DNA of 64,000 bases. Source: Candidatus Nanohaloarchaea archaeon. Its GTDB lineage: Archaea; Nanohalarchaeota; Nanosalinia; Nanosalinales; Nanosalinaceae. The stretch covers positions 143,460 through 207,459 of the forward strand of contig JACOQA010000003.1 in NCBI GenBank assembly GCA_014297435.1, given 5' to 3'. Under the pieces are notes generated by a model, which was given only the letters and a program-made list of their open reading frames with translations, ran no database searches and was not told the origin of the DNA. Positions 30,790-40,071 of this stretch are shown here, one piece after another (position 1 is the stretch's first letter; every line of letters starts with the position of its first letter). Position numbers and translations under genes: made by a program.

Positions 30790-31350
30790 ATGTCTTACGA
30801 CGGAGAACGTGAAATTGTTACACCGCATGATCAAACACGTGTAGAAGATCTCGCGACCGATATATCCGGAGTCGGAATAGGAATGAGCTCCGAGCATTAC
30901 GAAGTTGCGGAAGAATTTGATCCTGACCCCGGAGTCGTACCAATAGGAGGCTATGATCTGGACGATCTTGTTAAACATGAGATCGGAGAGATCCCGGGAG
31001 AGCTAAGACTTGTTAACGCAGATGAAGACAGGGCGATCTACCAGGGAAGAGCTACCGAGGTAGACGTGACTGCTGATGAAGATGGTTTCATAATCGGATG
31101 TACTGTCGACCAGAGACTCGGTTATAATCATAACGCTCCTTTAGTGGAGGCTGATGAGGTTCCTCCGTTCGCAGAGGTCCTCCAAGGAGAAATAAACGAA
31201 GACAGAGGAAACCGTTACGAATGGCGCGTAGGACCCGGAGAGACGGAAGTACTCGATCAGACTTTCGACGATCTTGCGTATACCGACCAGGTTCTATCAG
31301 AAAACTCGCGCTTCCTTTCAAGATATGAGGTAGGACCCGAAGAAAAGTAG
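30790..31350 (+). CDS. Hypothetical acidic protein interrupting the S13 operon
   Basis: 186 residues, acidic, soluble, beta-rich by pattern (EVDVTADEDGFIIGCTVDQR, NRYEWRVGPGETEVL). No family recognised. It lies where most archaea have eL18 directly after rpo3 and has its own TATA-like region (ATTTAACATT, about 30756). Followed by tRNA-Leu. Confidence 0.65.
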   Translation: MSYDGEREIVTPHDQTRVEDLATDISGVGIGMSSEHYEVAEEFDPDPGVVPIGGYDLDDLVKHEIGEIPGELRLVNADEDRAIYQGRATEVDVTADEDGFIIGCTVDQRLGYNHNAPLVEADEVPPFAEVLQGEINEDRGNRYEWRVGPGETEVLDQTFDDLAYTDQVLSENSRFLSRYEVGPEEK

Positions 31351-31401
31351 GTTCTTACCCTTCTTCTTTAACTCTTTAACCTCAGTTCTAATTTAGTAGA
31401 T

Positions 31402-31484
<83 letters not shown>

Positions 31485-31528
31485 AACTTGCTATATCTTT
31501 TTAACCAAGCTTCGACAATTCTCCGATA

Positions 31529-32479
31529 ATGGATATGGAAGAGGCTTTTCCCCGGCTCTCAAGCAAAAATAAGTCTGAAGATGAAGAGGATCTGAAGAAG
31601 AAGGTTGATGATGTTCTGGACGAGAAAGAGTCGGAATGGGAGGACACCTTTTCCAAGTACCAGGAGATGAACCGCCAATTACATGTAAAAGCGATGGCGG
31701 AAGCCCAGAGAAAGGTCCTCAGAGAGGTAATGGAAGATATGGTGGAGATGGTCGAGGATAGGACCGATGCCACTAAGGAAGAGCTTGAAGAAATGGTAGA
31801 AAACAGGACGGAAGAACTCGAAGAAGAGATAGAGTCGAACGCTGAAAAAATAGATGATTTAGAAGAGACGCACGAAGAAGATACGGAAGAGCTTGAAGAG
31901 AATATCAAAGAATCTAACAAGGACTTGCTTGAAAGAATTGATTCGACTAAGGAGAAGCTTAACGAGAGGATTGATTCGAACCGTTCCTTATTCAGGAAGA
32001 AATCAGATACTTTGACAGATAAAATAGATGAAGCCACGCTTAAACTTAAATCGATTGAGGAAACCGAAACACCTGAAGCACTGAGCGAAAAGGTTGAAAC
32101 CTTATCGGAGAAAGTTGAGAAGGTCGAGGAAGAGTCCCGAGAGGCTGATAACGCAGGCGTTGATACTGATGAGGTAGTGGAGAAAGTAAGAGAAAGGCTT
32201 GAAGTCGAGAAAATGAAACAGATTGAGGAATCGAACGATGATGAAGAGGAGTCTTCTGCATTAACACCTGGAAAGATTGATGAGTCGATGGAAGGAAGAA
32301 AAGTAAAGGTTGAAGGCAATCTCGAGTTCAGGAAGAAAGTAAAGGAATATAATTTCTACAAGATGTCGGAGAAAGGCGAACATGTTATTGTAAGATCGAA
32401 GGATCGTATTCCTTCAGGCAGACATGTCTTTGATGGAACTGTGAAGAAGATCAAGGGCAATCTTGTTGTCGACACATAG
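31529..32479 (+). CDS. Coiled-coil protein with N-terminal SEWED domain and C-terminal OB-like domain (short paralog)
   Basis: 316 residues. N-terminal region VDDVLDEKESEWEDTFSKYQ (about 27-46), a charged coiled coil from about 60 to 230, and a C-terminal domain of about 65 residues that begins LTPGKIDESMEGRKVKVEGN and continues GEHVIVRSKDRIPSGRHVFDG with a final strand GNLVVD. The strand pattern looks like an OB fold. Both end domains recur in the 1052-residue protein at 35234. No signal peptide or membrane segment. TATA-like TTTTTAACC at about 31498 makes it leaderless. It lies between the two halves of the S13 ribosomal operon. Confidence 0.75.
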   Translation: MDMEEAFPRLSSKNKSEDEEDLKKKVDDVLDEKESEWEDTFSKYQEMNRQLHVKAMAEAQRKVLREVMEDMVEMVEDRTDATKEELEEMVENRTEELEEEIESNAEKIDDLEETHEEDTEELEENIKESNKDLLERIDSTKEKLNERIDSNRSLFRKKSDTLTDKIDEATLKLKSIEETETPEALSEKVETLSEKVEKVEEESREADNAGVDTDEVVEKVRERLEVEKMKQIEESNDDEEESSALTPGKIDESMEGRKVKVEGNLEFRKKVKEYNFYKMSEKGEHVIVRSKDRIPSGRHVFDGTVKKIKGNLVVDT

Positions 32480-32552
32480 ACCGGTTTATAAAGTTCACCT
32501 TCTCTTTTGTGGATACCAGCAGTGGCATTTTGTTGCCGCGAGGTAGATTACT

Positions 32553-32903
32553 ATGGATGCTAAAGCAGATCCAACCAACCCGGTACTAGTCGAAACAATC
32601 GAGCTTCTCAAGGAGCAGGACGCACCTGTATACAGAGAAGCCGCAGAAAATCTTGGAAAAGTTAATAGAAGACGTCCGGAAGTCAACATTTCGGACATCG
32701 AAAGAAATACTGAGGAAGGCGACACCGTGATCGTTCCCGGAAAAGTCCTGGGAACAGGATACCTTTCGAAAGGTGTTAAGGTCGCAGCCTTCAAAGCCTC
32801 ATCCAGCGCAAAAGAAAAGATCAGTGAGGAAGGCGAGTTCAAGTTTATCGAGGATCTTGTAGAAGAAAATCCTAAAGGAGAAGAGGTGAAGATTCTAAAA
32901 TGA
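32553..32903 (+). CDS. rpl18e: Large ribosomal subunit protein eL18
   Basis: 116 residues, normal archaeal size. PTNPVLVETIELLKEQDAPV at the start, RRRPEVNISDIERNTEEGD, then VIVPGKVLGTGYLSKGVKVA and FKASSSAKEKI. First gene of the second half of the S13 operon; overlaps uL13 by ATGA. Confidence 0.93.
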   Translation: MDAKADPTNPVLVETIELLKEQDAPVYREAAENLGKVNRRRPEVNISDIERNTEEGDTVIVPGKVLGTGYLSKGVKVAAFKASSSAKEKISEEGEFKFIEDLVEENPKGEEVKILK

Positions 32904-33313
32904 CTGTAGTAGTAAACGCAGAAAACAAAGTTCTAGGAAGACTTGCATCAAATATCGCCAGAAAGATCAACGACGGAGAAGAAGTAAGAGTTGTTAACTC
33001 CGAGAAAGCAGTTATCTCCGGCGACGAAAAAGAAGTCAAGGAAGAGTACAAGACAAAATACGACAGAGGTGCAAGAGACTTCGGACCATACTACCCAAAA
33101 AGACCTGACAAGATCCTGAAGAGAACAGTAAAAGGAATGGTCGCAGACGGCGACGAAGACCACGTCAGAACCTACCTTGGAGTTCCTGAAGAGCTTGAAG
33201 ACTTCAAGGAAGTTGATGTCAAGGAAGGAGACGACCTTAAGAACAGGAACTATGTAAAACTTGGCGAGGTATCCAAGTTTATCGGATGGACTCCCTCGGG
33301 TGATCTAGAATAA
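32900..33313 (+). CDS. rpl13: Large ribosomal subunit protein uL13
   Basis: 137 residues. VVNAENKVLGRLASNIARKI at the N-terminus, GPYYPKRPDKILKRTVKGMV in the centre, and YLGVPEEL. Binds 23S rRNA domains II and VI. One-base TAATG overlap with uS9. Confidence 0.94.
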   Translation: MTVVVNAENKVLGRLASNIARKINDGEEVRVVNSEKAVISGDEKEVKEEYKTKYDRGARDFGPYYPKRPDKILKRTVKGMVADGDEDHVRTYLGVPEELEDFKEVDVKEGDDLKNRNYVKLGEVSKFIGWTPSGDLE

Positions 33314-33711
33314 TGACACACGCAAACGGAAAAAGAAAGACAGCAAAGGCAAGAGCTTCAGTTACTGAAGGAGAAGGAACCCTGAGGATCAACTCCCAGC
33401 CACTCAAAACATACAGAGAAATGTTCAGACAGAGAGTCAAAGAACCTCTCGTAATCGCAGGCGAAGATGTCTACTCCGACCTAGACATCGATGTAAACGT
33501 TGAAGGCGGAGGAATCCAGGCACAGGCAGAAGCCACAAGAATGGCAGTCGCCCGCGCACTTGTAGACCACACAGGAGACGACGATCTCGAGAGAGACTTC
33601 AGGGACTATGACAGGAACATGATAGTCGAAGATCCAAGAAGAACCGAGACACGCAAACCTTCGCAGTCCTCAAAGGGAGCGAGACACAAACAGCAGAAGT
33701 CGTACCGTTAG
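33313..33711 (+). CDS. rps9: Small ribosomal subunit protein uS9
   Basis: 132 residues. HANGKRKTAKARASVTEGEG, VEGGGIQAQAEATRMAVARA and the conserved basic C-terminal tail KGARHKQQKSYR, whose last Arg reaches the P-site tRNA. Directly follows uL13; Rpo10 follows after 12 bases. Confidence 0.95.
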   Translation: MTHANGKRKTAKARASVTEGEGTLRINSQPLKTYREMFRQRVKEPLVIAGEDVYSDLDIDVNVEGGGIQAQAEATRMAVARALVDHTGDDDLERDFRDYDRNMIVEDPRRTETRKPSQSSKGARHKQQKSYR

Positions 33712-33723
33712 AGGTATCCAAGA

Positions 33724-33921
33724 ATGCAAATACCAGTACGCTGCATGTCATGCGGCAAGGTAATCTCCGACAAATGGGAAGAGTTTAACGAGAGAGTCGA
33801 TGACGGAGAGGACAAGAAGGAAGTCCTTGACGACCTCGGACTAGAGAAGTACTGTTGTAGAACAGTCTTCCTTACCCACGTTGACACAGTAGAAGAAGTC
33901 GGAGAGCACAAGATCGTTTAA
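33724..33921 (+). CDS. rpo10: DNA-directed RNA polymerase subunit Rpo10 (N)
   Basis: 65 residues. Zinc-bundle motif PVRCMSCGKVISDKW with the CxxC pair and the second pair as adjacent cysteines in LEKYCCRTVFLTHVD. It supports the Rpo3/Rpo11 platform. Last gene of the operon; a terminator hairpin overlaps its end. Confidence 0.95.
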   Translation: MQIPVRCMSCGKVISDKWEEFNERVDDGEDKKEVLDDLGLEKYCCRTVFLTHVDTVEEVGEHKIV

Positions 33922-33935
33922 AGCGATCTTTTTTT
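33911..33935 (+). terminator. Terminator of the eL18-rpo10 operon
   Basis: AGATCG-TTTAAAG-CGATCT hairpin followed by seven T. The left arm lies in the last codons of rpo10 and the loop includes its stop codon. Confidence 0.6.
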
Positions 33936-33961
33936 CTCCCCTATTTTCCTAACAAGGATTT

Positions 33962-34348
33962 TTACTTTCTTCCAAGCTTCCTGAGCGCAGGAAGAACCAT
34001 CTCTAGATTAGGAGCTAGGTCTAATTCATCGAGTTCAGAGCCGTTGAACCATTCAAGTTTTCCAAATTTTTCTTCCTTCAGTTCAGGTTCTTCGCTGGTT
34101 TCGGCGAGGTAGCAGTGCCAGAGGAACAAAGTTCCATCATGTTCGAACTCTCCCGTGTAGAACGGCTTCCGTAGCTCCAATTCAACACCGATTTCTTCCC
34201 GTGCCTCTCTCACAGCTGCTTCGGTCGGGCTCTCCTCGCCCTCAACTTTTCCTCCGGGAACCTCCCAGTATCCTTCGTCTTCTCTATACAGAAGCAATAT
34301 CTTTTCGTTCTCTATGATTAAACTCCCAGCCAACTCAGTGTACTCCAT
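33962..34348 (-). CDS. Nudix hydrolase
   Basis: 128 residues. Complete Nudix box starting at G33 (GKVEGEESPTEAAVREAREE then IGVEL), preceded by YREDEGYWEVPGG. MutT-like proteins hydrolyse nucleoside diphosphates linked to X; substrate not determinable. Its ATG overlaps the stop of the ZIP transporter gene, so the two are one transcript. Confidence 0.92.
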   Translation of the reverse strand: MEYTELAGSLIIENEKILLLYREDEGYWEVPGGKVEGEESPTEAAVREAREEIGVELELRKPFYTGEFEHDGTLFLWHCYLAETSEEPELKEEKFGKLEWFNGSELDELDLAPNLEMVLPALRKLGRK

Positions 34349-35145
34349 TAGAAGAGAACTAGTGGAAGCATGGATAAGAAGCCTACGACCAGACCTGTAG
34401 CCATCTCCTTTTTACCGCCGCCTTCAAGGTCTTCGCCCTCCTCAAGTCCTTCAGGTATCAAATGGTGTACAACAAGTACAGACATGGCGCCTGCTGCAAA
34501 ACCGAAGCCGTACGGAAGGAAAGCTCTTGCTAAAGTAACGAAGTAGTATGCGATCACGGCACCTATAGGCTGCGGAAGCGATGAGAATACAGCCCACCAG
34601 ACCATACTGTACTTCGAAAGACCTAATCGTTTGATAGGTATCGAAATAGCAAGACCCTCCGGAATGTTGTGTATAGAAATAGCTATAGTCATGAAGACTG
34701 CCAAAACCGGTACTGTAAAACCAAGGAAATCGATTCCTGCAGCCAAATTAAGATCTGCGAACGAGACGCCAATAGCCACGCCCTCGGGAAAGCTGTGAAC
34801 CGTTAAAATACCTAGAATTAGTACAAGTTTCGTAAAATCTGCTTTCGGAAGCTCTTCGGGTTCATAATTAAACCTGTGGATAACCTTGTCCGCTATAAAA
34901 ACAAGTACCCCGCCCAGAAAACCACCAGTTAAAACCTGAAATATAGTTCCCTCAGCCAGACCTTCTAATACCAGACCGAACACAGATGCGGAGATCATTA
35001 TTCCCGAGGCTAGACCCCATAGTCCGACCGTCCACCTATCTGAAACTTCATCCTTGAAGAAGTATGGCAAAGCTCCTAAACCGGTCGCTAAAGCAGTTAT
35101 AAGTCCTGAGATAAAGACCAGCGTGAACTCTGCAAGCGTGGTCAT
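34348..35145 (-). CDS. ZIP-family metal transporter (GufA-like)
   Basis: 265 residues, about eight membrane segments. Metal-site motifs HSFPEGVAIGVSFADLN (TM4) and HNIPEGLAISIP (TM5), plus VVHHLIPEGLEEG in a later helix. ZIP proteins import Zn2+, Fe2+ or Mn2+. Starts with ATG and is followed by the overlapping Nudix gene. Divergent from the giant coiled-coil gene. Confidence 0.92.
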   Translation of the reverse strand: MTTLAEFTLVFISGLITALATGLGALPYFFKDEVSDRWTVGLWGLASGIMISASVFGLVLEGLAEGTIFQVLTGGFLGGVLVFIADKVIHRFNYEPEELPKADFTKLVLILGILTVHSFPEGVAIGVSFADLNLAAGIDFLGFTVPVLAVFMTIAISIHNIPEGLAISIPIKRLGLSKYSMVWWAVFSSLPQPIGAVIAYYFVTLARAFLPYGFGFAAGAMSVLVVHHLIPEGLEEGEDLEGGGKKEMATGLVVGFLSMLPLVLF

Positions 35146-35233
35146 AAACCAAAGTGTTTACTCCATGGTTAAGAGTGCTATGTTTCTGCGGGAACCATTT
35201 TAAGCCAGCCGAGCAAAAAACTTTCTACGGAAG

Positions 35234-38200
35234 ATGAGCCTGAAGCAGATAATCTCCGACCTCCGTTCAAGAGACGAAAAGTTCGAGAAAGAAATCGAGG
35301 AAGTCCAAAGCCAAGAGGAAGAGGAGATAGTTTCAGAAATTGACGAGGACATGAAGAGAATCGTCGAGCAGAAGAAATCAGAGTGGGAAGATGCATTTGA
35401 AAACTACAGAGAGGAAGACCGGGAAACTTTCATACAGGCTGTAGAACACATCAAAAACAACTTTATACAAGAACTGAGGAAGGACGTAAGACAGGTAACC
35501 GAGGAACACCATAAGGAAATAAGACAGAAACTTCTAGAGGAGCTGGATGAGTTCGAGGAGAACCAGAAAGAACTTAGCGAAGAGATCGAGCTAGAAGTCG
35601 AACACCAGAAACAAAGAATCGACAAGAGACTAGATGATAAGACGGAGGAGCTGGAGAAGCAGCTTGATCAGAAAATAGAAGAGTTAAACCAGGAAAGAGA
35701 AGATTTGGAGAAAAGCGTCGAGTCCAAATCTCAAGAAGTAGATGAAAAACTTGCAGAAGTAGATTCTAAACTTAAAGAAGCTAATGAAAGGATCGAATCA
35801 GGTCTCGAGTCTGAGAAGGAAGAGATAGAGCAACGGTTCGAACAACAGAACTCTGAACTTCAGAGAAGACAAAAGGAAGCTAAGAAAGAACTTGAGTCGA
35901 AGACTGAAGAGCTTGAAAATGAGATAAACGAAAAAGCAGAACAAGTTGAAAAAGAGTCGAGAGATCTACGTTCTAACTTTGGAGAGTTCAAACAGGACGT
36001 CAAGAGCAATATAGACGAACAAGAAGAGAAGATCGAAACAAGATTCAAACAGCAAAGAGAGAAGATCAAGAAGAAAGAAGAGGAACTGGATTCCAGATTC
36101 GAAGAGAGCCAGAAAAAGGTTGAGAAAACGCTAGAGGAAAAGGAAGAAGATTTAGAAGATAATCTAGAGAAGAAAAGCAGCAGTATAGATGAAAAAATCG
36201 ACCGGATAGAGTCCCAAATAGATGACCACGAGGAAAATGTTAGTTCACGTCTAGACCGGAGGGAGAAAGCCTTCGAAGAGAAGCAGAAACAACTTGAGAA
36301 AAAACTGGAGAAGAAAGAGGAAGAGTTGAATAGCCATCTAGAGGAGAAAAGTAACGAGCTAAACGAAGAAATAGATCAGATACGCTCCAAAGTCAAGAAA
36401 CACGAGGAAAATGTTGATTCCCGTTTCGAACAGAAGAAAAAAGAGTTGGAGGAGCGAGGAGATAAGTTAGAGAAGAAGGTCGAGGAAAACCACGACAACC
36501 TTGTCTCCAGGATCGAAACCAAGGAGAACGAAATAGATTCTGAACTTAAAGACCATCGACAAGAAGTGGATTCAAGGCTGGAAAACGAGTTTGAGAAGCT
36601 TGAAGACAAGATGGAACATGATAGTAAGCAACTAAGTGAAAAGTTCAAAGAAAAGTCAAAGCAGCTCGATCAGAGACTCGAGGACAAACTTGATACCGCT
36701 GTTTTCAAGAAGGAGAAACAAGAATTGTCGAAACAGATTTCAGAAATTGGAGAGGAACAGGAGAGAAACACTAGTCAGCTTCAGGACATAAACCAGGAAA
36801 TGGATAGTCTTAACGATAAACTAGATGATACAAAGGACGAATTCAATAATAGGATCGAATTTGAGAAAGAGTCACGTCAGGAAACCGTAGAAGAGCTTAA
36901 CCAGAAAATTGAAACGAAAGCGGACTCCAAAAAACTTGAGGAACGTGCACGTGAACTGGAGGACTCACTAGAGGAAACCTCTGAAGACCTAAGTAAAACA
37001 GAGGAAGAGTTTAACGGAAGACTTGAACAAAAGATAAGCGCAGAGGAGCTCGAAAATAGCATCAAATCAGCTAAAGAAGCTCTCTCAAACAGAATAGAGA
37101 AAAAAGCTGATAGCGAGGAAATCGAAGACAGTATAGAGGATCTTAGAAAAGAACTCAATGAATCAGAAGAGAAGATTGAAAACCATATAGAGACCAATAA
37201 AGAAAGATTAAGTTCGAAGGTAGAAGAGAAAGAACTTGACCAGAAAACGAAAGATTTGGAGGAAGAAATAGAGAAAATTGAGGAAAATGTCGAAAATTCA
37301 ATAGAGGACCAAGAAGAAAACATCGAGAGCTTTAGGTCTGATATTGAGGAAAGGATAGACGAAAAGCTGGAGGATTCGAAGGAGAAAAGAGAAGATATAA
37401 CAAAAAGGCTAAAACAGAAAGCAGAATCCTCAGAGATAGATAGCCTGAAAAAGGACATAGAGGATAGACCGAAGAACGAAAAGGTAGAAGAAAAGTTCGA
37501 AGAAGTTCTTGAAAACATAGCAGAGTATGAGAAGAAAGTTGAGGGAAATCAGGAGAACATAGATGATCTAAGTAAAGAATTAGAAAATAGAGTGGGCTCC
37601 GCAGCAGACAGAGAGGACCTGGAAGAACTCGAACAGAAACTAGAGGACTCTATAAGTGAAAAACCAGGAGAGGAAGAAATAAATGATCTAGAAAAGAAGA
37701 TTGAAAGCAAACCCGGTTTTGAAACCTTAGAGGAGGCTCTAAGGGAACGAATTGATTCAAAGGCTGACATTCAGAAGGTTGAAGATCTTGAGAAAAGACT
37801 TGAGGAAACAGCTGACGCAAGAATCGAGGACGAAATTGAAGAACTTGAAGAAAAAATCAGCGATGCTAAAGAAGTGGAGGAGGAACTTCAAACCGTGAAG
37901 AAGCGTCTTGAACAAATTGAAGAAAGCGATAACGCTACCGAATCAGATATTGAAAAAGTGAAACAGAGTCTCGAGAAAAAGATTCTAGAACCTAATGAAG
38001 TTAAGAGGATTGCTTCGAACACGCAGGAAGTTGAAAAGCTTGAGAAACGTATCAAGAATCTTGAAAACCAGGATCGCTCCGATCTAGAGAGAAGAGTCGA
38101 AAAGCTCGAGAAACAACTGGAACAGACCTCTAGCTCAACTGGGACAAGATCAAGACAGGAGAAAAAGGATTTCTTCGAGCCTTCAGATTTGGACAAGGGA

Positions 38201-38392
38201 ATGACAGGAAACAGGATGAAGGTAAAAGGAAAGTTGAACTTCCATGAGGAGACTTCGGGAACTTTCCTTTACTCTTTGAGAGGTTCTGATGACTGGGTTG
38301 TAGTGCGTTCAAGTCAGAAGTTAGAGGAAGGTTCTACAACACTTCAAGGAGAGCTGAAGATACATCACGGCGATCTCTACCTAGAGGTCTAG
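35234..38392 (+). CDS. Giant coiled-coil protein with SEWED N-terminal and OB-like C-terminal domains (long paralog)
   Basis: 1052 residues. N-terminal domain about 1-105 with VEQKKSEWEDAFENYREEDR; a nearly uninterrupted charged coiled coil from about 110 to 975 rich in Glu, Lys, Gln and Ser and nearly free of aromatic residues and of Pro/Gly breaks; a Ser/Thr linker (QTSSSTGTRSRQEKK); then a C-terminal domain of about 65 residues, DLDKGMTGNRMKVKGKLNF with DDWVVVRSSQKLEEGSTTLQG and GDLYLEV. The two end domains match those of the 316-residue protein at 31529, whose coil is far shorter. No Walker motifs (so not SMC/Rad50), no signal peptide or membrane segment. At 0.15 nm per residue an extended coil would be about 130 nm. 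Probably a cytoplasmic filament, scaffold or tether. Confidence 0.8.
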   Translation: MSLKQIISDLRSRDEKFEKEIEEVQSQEEEEIVSEIDEDMKRIVEQKKSEWEDAFENYREEDRETFIQAVEHIKNNFIQELRKDVRQVTEEHHKEIRQKLLEELDEFEENQKELSEEIELEVEHQKQRIDKRLDDKTEELEKQLDQKIEELNQEREDLEKSVESKSQEVDEKLAEVDSKLKEANERIESGLESEKEEIEQRFEQQNSELQRRQKEAKKELESKTEELENEINEKAEQVEKESRDLRSNFGEFKQDVKSNIDEQEEKIETRFKQQREKIKKKEEELDSRFEESQKKVEKTLEEKEEDLEDNLEKKSSSIDEKIDRIESQIDDHEENVSSRLDRREKAFEEKQKQLEKKLEKKEEELNSHLEEKSNELNEEIDQIRSKVKKHEENVDSRFEQKKKELEERGDKLEKKVEENHDNLVSRIETKENEIDSELKDHRQEVDSRLENEFEKLEDKMEHDSKQLSEKFKEKSKQLDQRLEDKLDTAVFKKEKQELSKQISEIGEEQERNTSQLQDINQEMDSLNDKLDDTKDEFNNRIEFEKESRQETVEELNQKIETKADSKKLEERARELEDSLEETSEDLSKTEEEFNGRLEQKISAEELENSIKSAKEALSNRIEKKADSEEIEDSIEDLRKELNESEEKIENHIETNKERLSSKVEEKELDQKTKDLEEEIEKIEENVENSIEDQEENIESFRSDIEERIDEKLEDSKEKREDITKRLKQKAESSEIDSLKKDIEDRPKNEKVEEKFEEVLENIAEYEKKVEGNQENIDDLSKELENRVGSAADREDLEELEQKLEDSISEKPGEEEINDLEKKIESKPGFETLEEALRERIDSKADIQKVEDLEKRLEETADARIEDEIEELEEKISDAKEVEEELQTVKKRLEQIEESDNATESDIEKVKQSLEKKILEPNEVKRIASNTQEVEKLEKRIKNLENQDRSDLERRVEKLEKQLEQTSSSTGTRSRQEKKDFFEPSDLDKGMTGNRMKVKGKLNFHEETSGTFLYSLRGSDDWVVVRSSQKLEEGSTTLQGELKIHHGDLYLEV

Positions 38393-38879: not shown

Positions 38880-38954
38880 GCGGCCGTGGTGTAGTCTGGC
38901 CAATCATTTCGGCCTTTCGAGCCGATGACCCGGGTTCAAATCCCGGCGGCCGCA
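38880..38954 (+). tRNA. tRNA-Glu (UUC)
   Basis: Acceptor GCGGCCG/CGGCCGC with A73. Anticodon stem TCGGC/GCCGA, loop CTTTCGA, anticodon TTC. T-arm CCGGGTTCAAATCCCGG. No intron or CCA. TATA-like GTTTAAAAG about 30 bases upstream. Confidence 0.95.
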
Positions 38955-38989: not shown

Positions 38990-39472
38990 ATGGTCGAACC
39001 TCTTTCAGTAGCACTCGGAGCAGTTATCAAGGAAGGAAAAGTTCTTCTTGTCAAAAGAGAATCTAACAACTTCAAGAACCTTTACGGTTTTCCAGGCGGC
39101 AAAATAGAGGGCGAGGAGCATATCCGCGATGCGTTAAAAAGAGAAATTGAAGAGGAAACAGGCTTTGAAACAAGTCTTAAACGTCACTTAGGGACCGTGT
39201 CGGAAAAGATAGAGAATCCTGAAAGCCATTCTCCAGTATTATTACATTTCTTCGAGATGAAAATTGAAAGAAAAAGTTCTGAATCGGAAATGGAGACAAG
39301 TTGGTTTGAACTTGAAACAATATCACAAAATGAGAACTCTATTATCCCCAGCGGCTCTCAGATGATACAGGAAATTGTTAAGAATGGAAAAAGAGGCTAT
39401 TTCGAGAGCAACATAGTTAAGAAAAGCAAAAAAGCTTATTTAGATAGATTCGACAAAATAGGAAAGAATTAG
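38990..39472 (+). CDS. Nudix hydrolase
   Basis: 160 residues. Nudix box GGKIEGEEHIRDALKREIEE then ETGFE at about 36-60, preceded by VKRESNNFKNLYGFP. The opening SVALGAVIKEGKVLLVKRES is the usual first strands. C-terminal tail (about 125-160) is basic and unrecognised. Converges with the next gene, overlapping it by 4 bases. Substrate unknown. Confidence 0.9.
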   Translation: MVEPLSVALGAVIKEGKVLLVKRESNNFKNLYGFPGGKIEGEEHIRDALKREIEEETGFETSLKRHLGTVSEKIENPESHSPVLLHFFEMKIERKSSESEMETSWFELETISQNENSIIPSGSQMIQEIVKNGKRGYFESNIVKKSKKAYLDRFDKIGKN

Positions 39473-40071
39473 TGGATGTCGTGACCTCTTTCCCGGTCAC
39501 GCTGCCTAAGTGCCTCGTCCACTGATTTATCTTCGTGCTCTTCCGCCGAGTCAATTATGTCGCGTACTCTTTCGTTTCCAGAGTATTCGGGTCTTAGGTC
39601 GCCTCTAAACAGGTCTTCGAGGTCGTCCCATTTCTCCTTGTGGATCATCTCCTGTACATCCTCTCTTTTCAGCATGTCTACAACCTCTTCCCGATCCATC
39701 TCTTCTAGGTCCTGAACGATTCCTTGGTCCTCCATAAGGTTCTGTTTCCTTTTTACAGCGATCAGTCCGTTTACTACTCTGAGTGCGTCCATCATCTGGG
39801 CGTGTTCGTTGTGGTAGATCGCCATCTCGTCTTCAATAGATGCAATCTCTTCGGCCAGTTCTTCTTCAAGAAGATCGTCGTCCGTCCCTCTTAATCTTTC
39901 GAATTTTCTTCTTCTTTTCTCAGCCAGACCTTCATGCTTGTCTCTTTTTAGTTCCATGTCGGCACGGATCTCTGATTTTTCTTCCATAAGTTCGTCGAGA
40001 TCCATGTGCTCGATTTTTACAGCATCATCCTGCGTAAATCTGTCGATTATACCGCTTAATACAGCTACCAT
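39469..40071 (-). CDS. Hypothetical coiled-coil protein
   Basis: 200 residues, wholly helical: long charged helices at about 20-70 (DLDELMEEKSEIRADMELKR) and 75-125 (IYHNEHAQMMDALRVVNGLI), then MDREEVVDMLKREDVQEMIH. The shape is loosely like ESCRT-III/Snf7 proteins, but no family motif can be matched and I do not claim it. No signal or membrane segment. ATG at 40071 follows a TATA-like ATATT-rich stretch. Confidence 0.6.
   Translation of the reverse strand: MVAVLSGIIDRFTQDDAVKIEHMDLDELMEEKSEIRADMELKRDKHEGLAEKRRRKFERLRGTDDDLLEEELAEEIASIEDEMAIYHNEHAQMMDALRVVNGLIAVKRKQNLMEDQGIVQDLEEMDREEVVDMLKREDVQEMIHKEKWDDLEDLFRGDLRPEYSGNERVRDIIDSAEEHEDKSVDEALRQRDRERGHDIH

Follow-up and report, generated by a model that had tools for sequence, protein, structure and literature searches.

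Results

Two coiled-coil/OB genes and their surroundings

The window analysed here, a stretch of 64,000 nucleotides from a Candidatus Nanohaloarchaea archaeon, contains the two open reading frames that had been claimed by the initial annotation, both on the forward strand and with their lengths unchanged. The first (31529-32479) encodes a coiled-coil/OB protein of 316 aa, referred to as S, and the second (35234-38392) one of 1052 aa, referred to as L. S is formed by a conserved N-terminal helical segment (residues 22-82; 31592-31774), a strongly acidic coil (about residues 83-245; 31775-32263) and an OB-fold domain with a net charge of +6 (residues 246-316; 32264-32476). In L the conserved helical segment (residues 36-96; 35339-35521) is followed by a predicted straight coil (residues 101-480; 35534-36673), a second, heptad-like coil (residues 481-982; 36674-38179) and the OB-fold domain (residues 983-1052; 38180-38389). 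The coil between the common ends thus spans ~165 residues in S vs ~880 in L. Membrane segments are absent from both proteins, as had been stated, with Kyte-Doolittle maxima (19 residues) of -0.06 and 0.06, and no enzyme domain was recognised in either with Pfam or NCBIfam.

S is located amid ribosomal-protein genes, directly after a tRNA-Leu(TAA) (31401-31485, forward strand), a tRNA that also precedes S in the relative G007. The L locus is conserved between rps9/ZIP/HIT genes and citrate synthase, beside a tRNA-Glu(TTC) (38880-38954, forward strand). In the window a HIT gene lies between L and this tRNA, which directly follows L in most relatives, at 37-55 bp in G004, G006, G007, G008, G013 and G014 (loci L024, L027, L028, L029, L031 and L032); in G017 (locus L030) two tRNA-Glu genes adjoin tandem copies. 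TATA-like boxes, judged by eye, precede S, the downstream rpl18e, L and tRNA-Glu, and co-transcription of S with rpl18e is weakened by the presence of a box before each. That S lies amid ribosomal genes, and that S and L both neighbour tRNA genes, is only suggestive of function. Two further proteins were observed in the neighbourhood. A 186-aa protein between rpoD and tRNA-Leu (30790-31350) has no Pfam match, and no counterpart was seen at the same place in relatives. A 200-aa helical protein of no known family (39469-40071) is highly conserved, with 65-74% identity in several relatives, and is kept whether L is present or absent.

S and L have homologous ends

The proposal that S and L share both ends was borne out by local alignment (BLOSUM62), in which the N-ends scored 158 and the C-ends 102, values reached in 0 of 2000 shuffles in each case. 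Because coils resemble each other, a coil-window control was added: the first 75 residues of S scored 116 against the N-end of L, compared with a maximum of 71 against 1352 family coil windows. The N-ends of 10 of the 11 other family members (L included) also scored above 71 against S, the exception being the G005 protein. All 11 strong matches of the N-segment (E<1e-17) fall in coil-OB family proteins within the phylum, one of them a frame-split G017 copy, and the aromatic residues W51, F55, Y58 and F66 of L are kept. The segment had been described as a domain; its conservation in both proteins stands, but in the single-chain AlphaFold model of L it is part of a single unbroken helix (residues 3-129, pLDDT 93.2) with no separate globular domain. 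A search of the N-segment profile against the PDB gave nothing convincing (best E=0.09).

The C-terminal domain of L is modelled by AlphaFold as a five-stranded barrel (pLDDT 93.7), placed by Foldseek and VIA-align with the OB domains of AspRS, ExoVII, MCM and RPA (VIA-align Z 8.8-10.2, 1.5-2.4 Å rmsd over 65-70 residues; best Z 10.2 at 1.6 Å). The OB profile matches small OB proteins of the phylum (hhalign 97.0%, E=1e-10), and one of these has itself a match to PF01336 (8.2e-12); the OB domains of S and L alone gave no direct relevant match in Pfam. The "OB-like" label of the initial annotation was confirmed by the fold model, the structural matches and this profile match, which assign the C-terminal domain to the tRNA_anti-codon type of OB folds. 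A PDB match of the OB profile to haptoglobin (E=5e-4) was judged to be due to chance. The head of S has a net charge of +6 and +7 in two of the three S proteins, an unusual value next to an acidic coil, whereas the heads of intact L proteins are acidic (-3 to -11), and for this reason the S head would be the better candidate for the predicted nucleic-acid binding.

Outside the phylum, the A1 profile matched single-domain OB proteins, the OB domains of tRNA synthetases and of DHH proteins, a TM-anchored OB protein with a low-complexity linker in G133/G289 and, in G327, a protein without a recognisable OB domain; no coil-OB rod of the S/L family was among these matches. A membrane-anchored protein of a different archaeal family (L107:7318-8685 and L108:5362-6462) has a long low-complexity linker and carries the same "VRS" motif (GSAxVRSxKEI) in its OB end.

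Geometry of the coil

In L, a hydrophobic stripe with 3.63 residues per turn remains phase-locked over the 380 residues from 101 to 480 (power 68.7), and the overlapping stretch 111-525 gave a power of 48.9 against a maximum of 10.9 in 500 shuffles. When this latter stretch is folded on the 3.63 period, the hydrophobic residues fall mainly in 2 of 12 bins of 30 degrees each, forming a stripe of ~60 degrees; the coil is 20% hydrophobic and 54% charged. Weak internal repeats of 58 residues (174 nt), visible at the DNA level, occur in residues 101-480. Since the period is near the natural α-helix pitch, this part is expected to form a straight, hardly supercoiled rod with a narrow interface. Residues 481-982 are less regular, with a period of 3.48 and more Pro/Gly interruptions than 101-480, and among L orthologues the coil period differs from about 3.4 to 3.8.

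Distribution and length of the coil

A whole-genome search, on which the distribution is based, found the family in 9 of the 19 genomes of one Nanohaloarchaeota family. The remaining 9 genomes of the phylum gave no full-strength match, the other archaea searched contained no coil-OB rod of this family, and a related-locus scan of genome contigs with L gave nothing. A viral origin was rejected, as no relative was present in viral contigs and the PHROGs match is at the coil level only. The tree of OB domains separates S (window genome, G006 and G007) from L (support for L 82/92), and because of this split the duplication probably predates these genera. G004, G008 and G013 have L without S, and half of the family has neither. 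At the L locus, L is absent from the complete genomes G003, G009, G010 and G015 and from the draft of the same-genus G001. Since complete genomes of the same family are without them, S and L are dispensable in the lineage, and their patchy presence fits an accessory role; the same genomes disfavour a core role in division or at the chromosome, two settings that had been among those suggested initially.

The length of L at one and the same locus is 437 aa in G013, 473 in G004, 747 in G008, 890 in G007, 968 in G006 and 1052 in the window genome, and at least 983 aa in G014, where the gene is near the contig end. The proteins of G004 and G013, two species of one genus, have 81% identity; a single indel of 36 residues in the coil distinguishes them, with the ends kept. 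S lengths are steadier (316, 350 and 387 aa). Left out of this comparison were the G005 copies, two ORFs of 977 and 1023 that overlap, and the G017 copies, which occur in tandem with Ns and split frames; both cases are probably frameshifted assemblies.

These lengths bear on the molecular ruler proposed by the initial annotation (same ends, different spacing). In a ruler pair each of the two coil lengths would define its own functional distance between one pair of partners. The identical end types on coils that differ five-fold in length within one genome, together with the fairly constant length of S, speak for such a pair; however, L drifts from 437 to 1052 aa at one locus and by an indel within a genus, and genomes exist with L only or with neither gene, so that we consider this explanation unlikely. 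As the length of L varies while the ends stay, a fixed ruler is disfavoured, and S and L look like spacers or tethers instead.

Discussion

Pfam, NCBIfam, PADLOC and PHROGs gave no match identifying either end of S or L, in agreement with the earlier view that they belong to no described family, and a literature search did not find this coil-OB family described. S and L are true paralogues of a lineage-restricted family that, with the nearest published coiled-coil proteins compared by gene context, appears to be undescribed.

We propose, with middling confidence, that S and L are self-associating cytosolic rods which tether their OB heads away from an N-terminal partner, over a loosely constrained length. 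The aromatic-rich N-terminal helix would mediate self-association (probably parallel and dimeric) and/or the docking of a partner, the coil would extend as a long α-helical rod, and the OB domains would form a cluster of heads at its far end. The ligand of these heads may be a nucleic acid, likelier for S with its basic head, or else a protein, and the pair would act as tethers or scaffolds that keep this ligand at a distance from the N-terminal partner. The model builds on the observed homologous ends, OB fold, N-terminal helix, coil geometry, length drift, two old subfamilies and patchiness, and adds an oligomeric state, a ligand and a partner that we infer. A cytosolic tether or scaffold is the simplest reading because there is an OB head and neither a membrane segment nor a recognised enzyme domain. 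Whether the two paralogous OB-headed coils of freely evolving length represent a lineage-specific cytosolic RNA- or tRNA-binding scaffold of minute symbionts is doubtful.

If fully extended, the ~880 coil residues of L (0.15 nm each) would give a rod of ~130 nm, sizeable for a small cell and kept by a 1 Mb genome, in a lineage whose internal architecture is little known. Selection appears to act on the ends while the coil lengthens and shortens, and the S and L heads offer a clean target for finding out what gives the cytosol of DPANN symbionts its organisation.

A scaffold linked to tRNA, with anticodon-binding-type OB heads capturing tRNAs or synthetases, is quite unlikely. The anticodon-binding domains of AspRS and AsnRS are among the closest solved OB folds, tRNA genes adjoin S in two genomes (tRNA-Leu(TAA), upstream) and L in six (tRNA-Glu(TTC), downstream), and a Phe of S occupies what we take to be the place of the base-contacting Phe of bacterial AspRS. 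Nevertheless, the tRNA-Glu occupies the corresponding position in genomes that have no L, and has its own TATA-like box, the AspRS match is generic for OB folds, and the S of G006 and the L of G005 do not adjoin tRNAs. Ribosome tethering is suggested by gene position only.

The possibility that S and L are SMC-like or nucleoid-organising proteins, perhaps substituting for a missing SMC system, draws on SMC and ASRP models, which match weakly and at the level of the coil, and is in our opinion very unlikely. As the initial annotation had maintained, the proteins are not SMC: they lack an ATPase head and a hinge and gave no SMC_N match, and the SMC/Rad50 matches cover the coil only and are far below the cut-off. 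SMC_N proteins are present throughout the phylum (28 of 28 genomes), irrespective of whether S or L occurs, which rules out a replacement. Finally, an amphipathic protein that coats membranes or lipid bodies in the manner of an apolipoprotein is hardly credible, since the match of L to Pfam Apolipoprotein A1/A4/E (PF01442), 0.7 bits over the cut-off (90.7 vs 90; S under it at 19.2), and a coil period near 11/3 are opposed by a narrow stripe on a highly charged coil, without the broad non-polar face for lipid binding, and ZorA tails score alike, so that the match follows periodicity.

Comparison with known systems

S and L can be set beside several known proteins. The nearest published DPANN coils are the pilus-associated coiled-coil proteins (CCPs), which lie beside type IV pilus genes, with one or two per genome, and whose loci were included in that study only when beside pilus or flagella genes (PMC11291902). 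Long coiled coils in Nanohaloarchaeota are common to both, and S and L are set apart by gene context alone, as no pilus genes adjoin them; T2SSE had no match on the contig of the window (C9), and matched only on contigs C1, C8, C11 and C12. SMC/Rad50 proteins have a long coiled coil and coil-level HMM scores like S and L, which differ in having neither their ABC ATPase heads nor their hinge. ZorA of the Zorya defence has in common with this family an amphipathic intracellular coil of great length (HMM match E=3.6e-14), but the matches are confined to the tail and stop short of the OB end, and S and L are devoid of the MotA/ExbB/TolQ membrane domain. Both the ZorA and the Apolipoprotein matches follow the coil period, and the narrow stripe and the absent membrane domain speak against membership. 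The PF01336 OB domains of AspRS/AsnRS, RPA and the ExoVII large subunit have the same five-stranded fold as the S and L head, which in contrast terminates a long coil, is not joined to any enzyme domain and has no direct Pfam match. The small membrane-anchored PF01336 OB proteins found in many Nanohaloarchaeota (L033:8058-8399, 113 aa, and relatives) share the OB subtype and the genomes with S and L; unlike these, they carry an N-terminal hydrophobic anchor, have no coil and form a separate clade of the OB tree (98/99).
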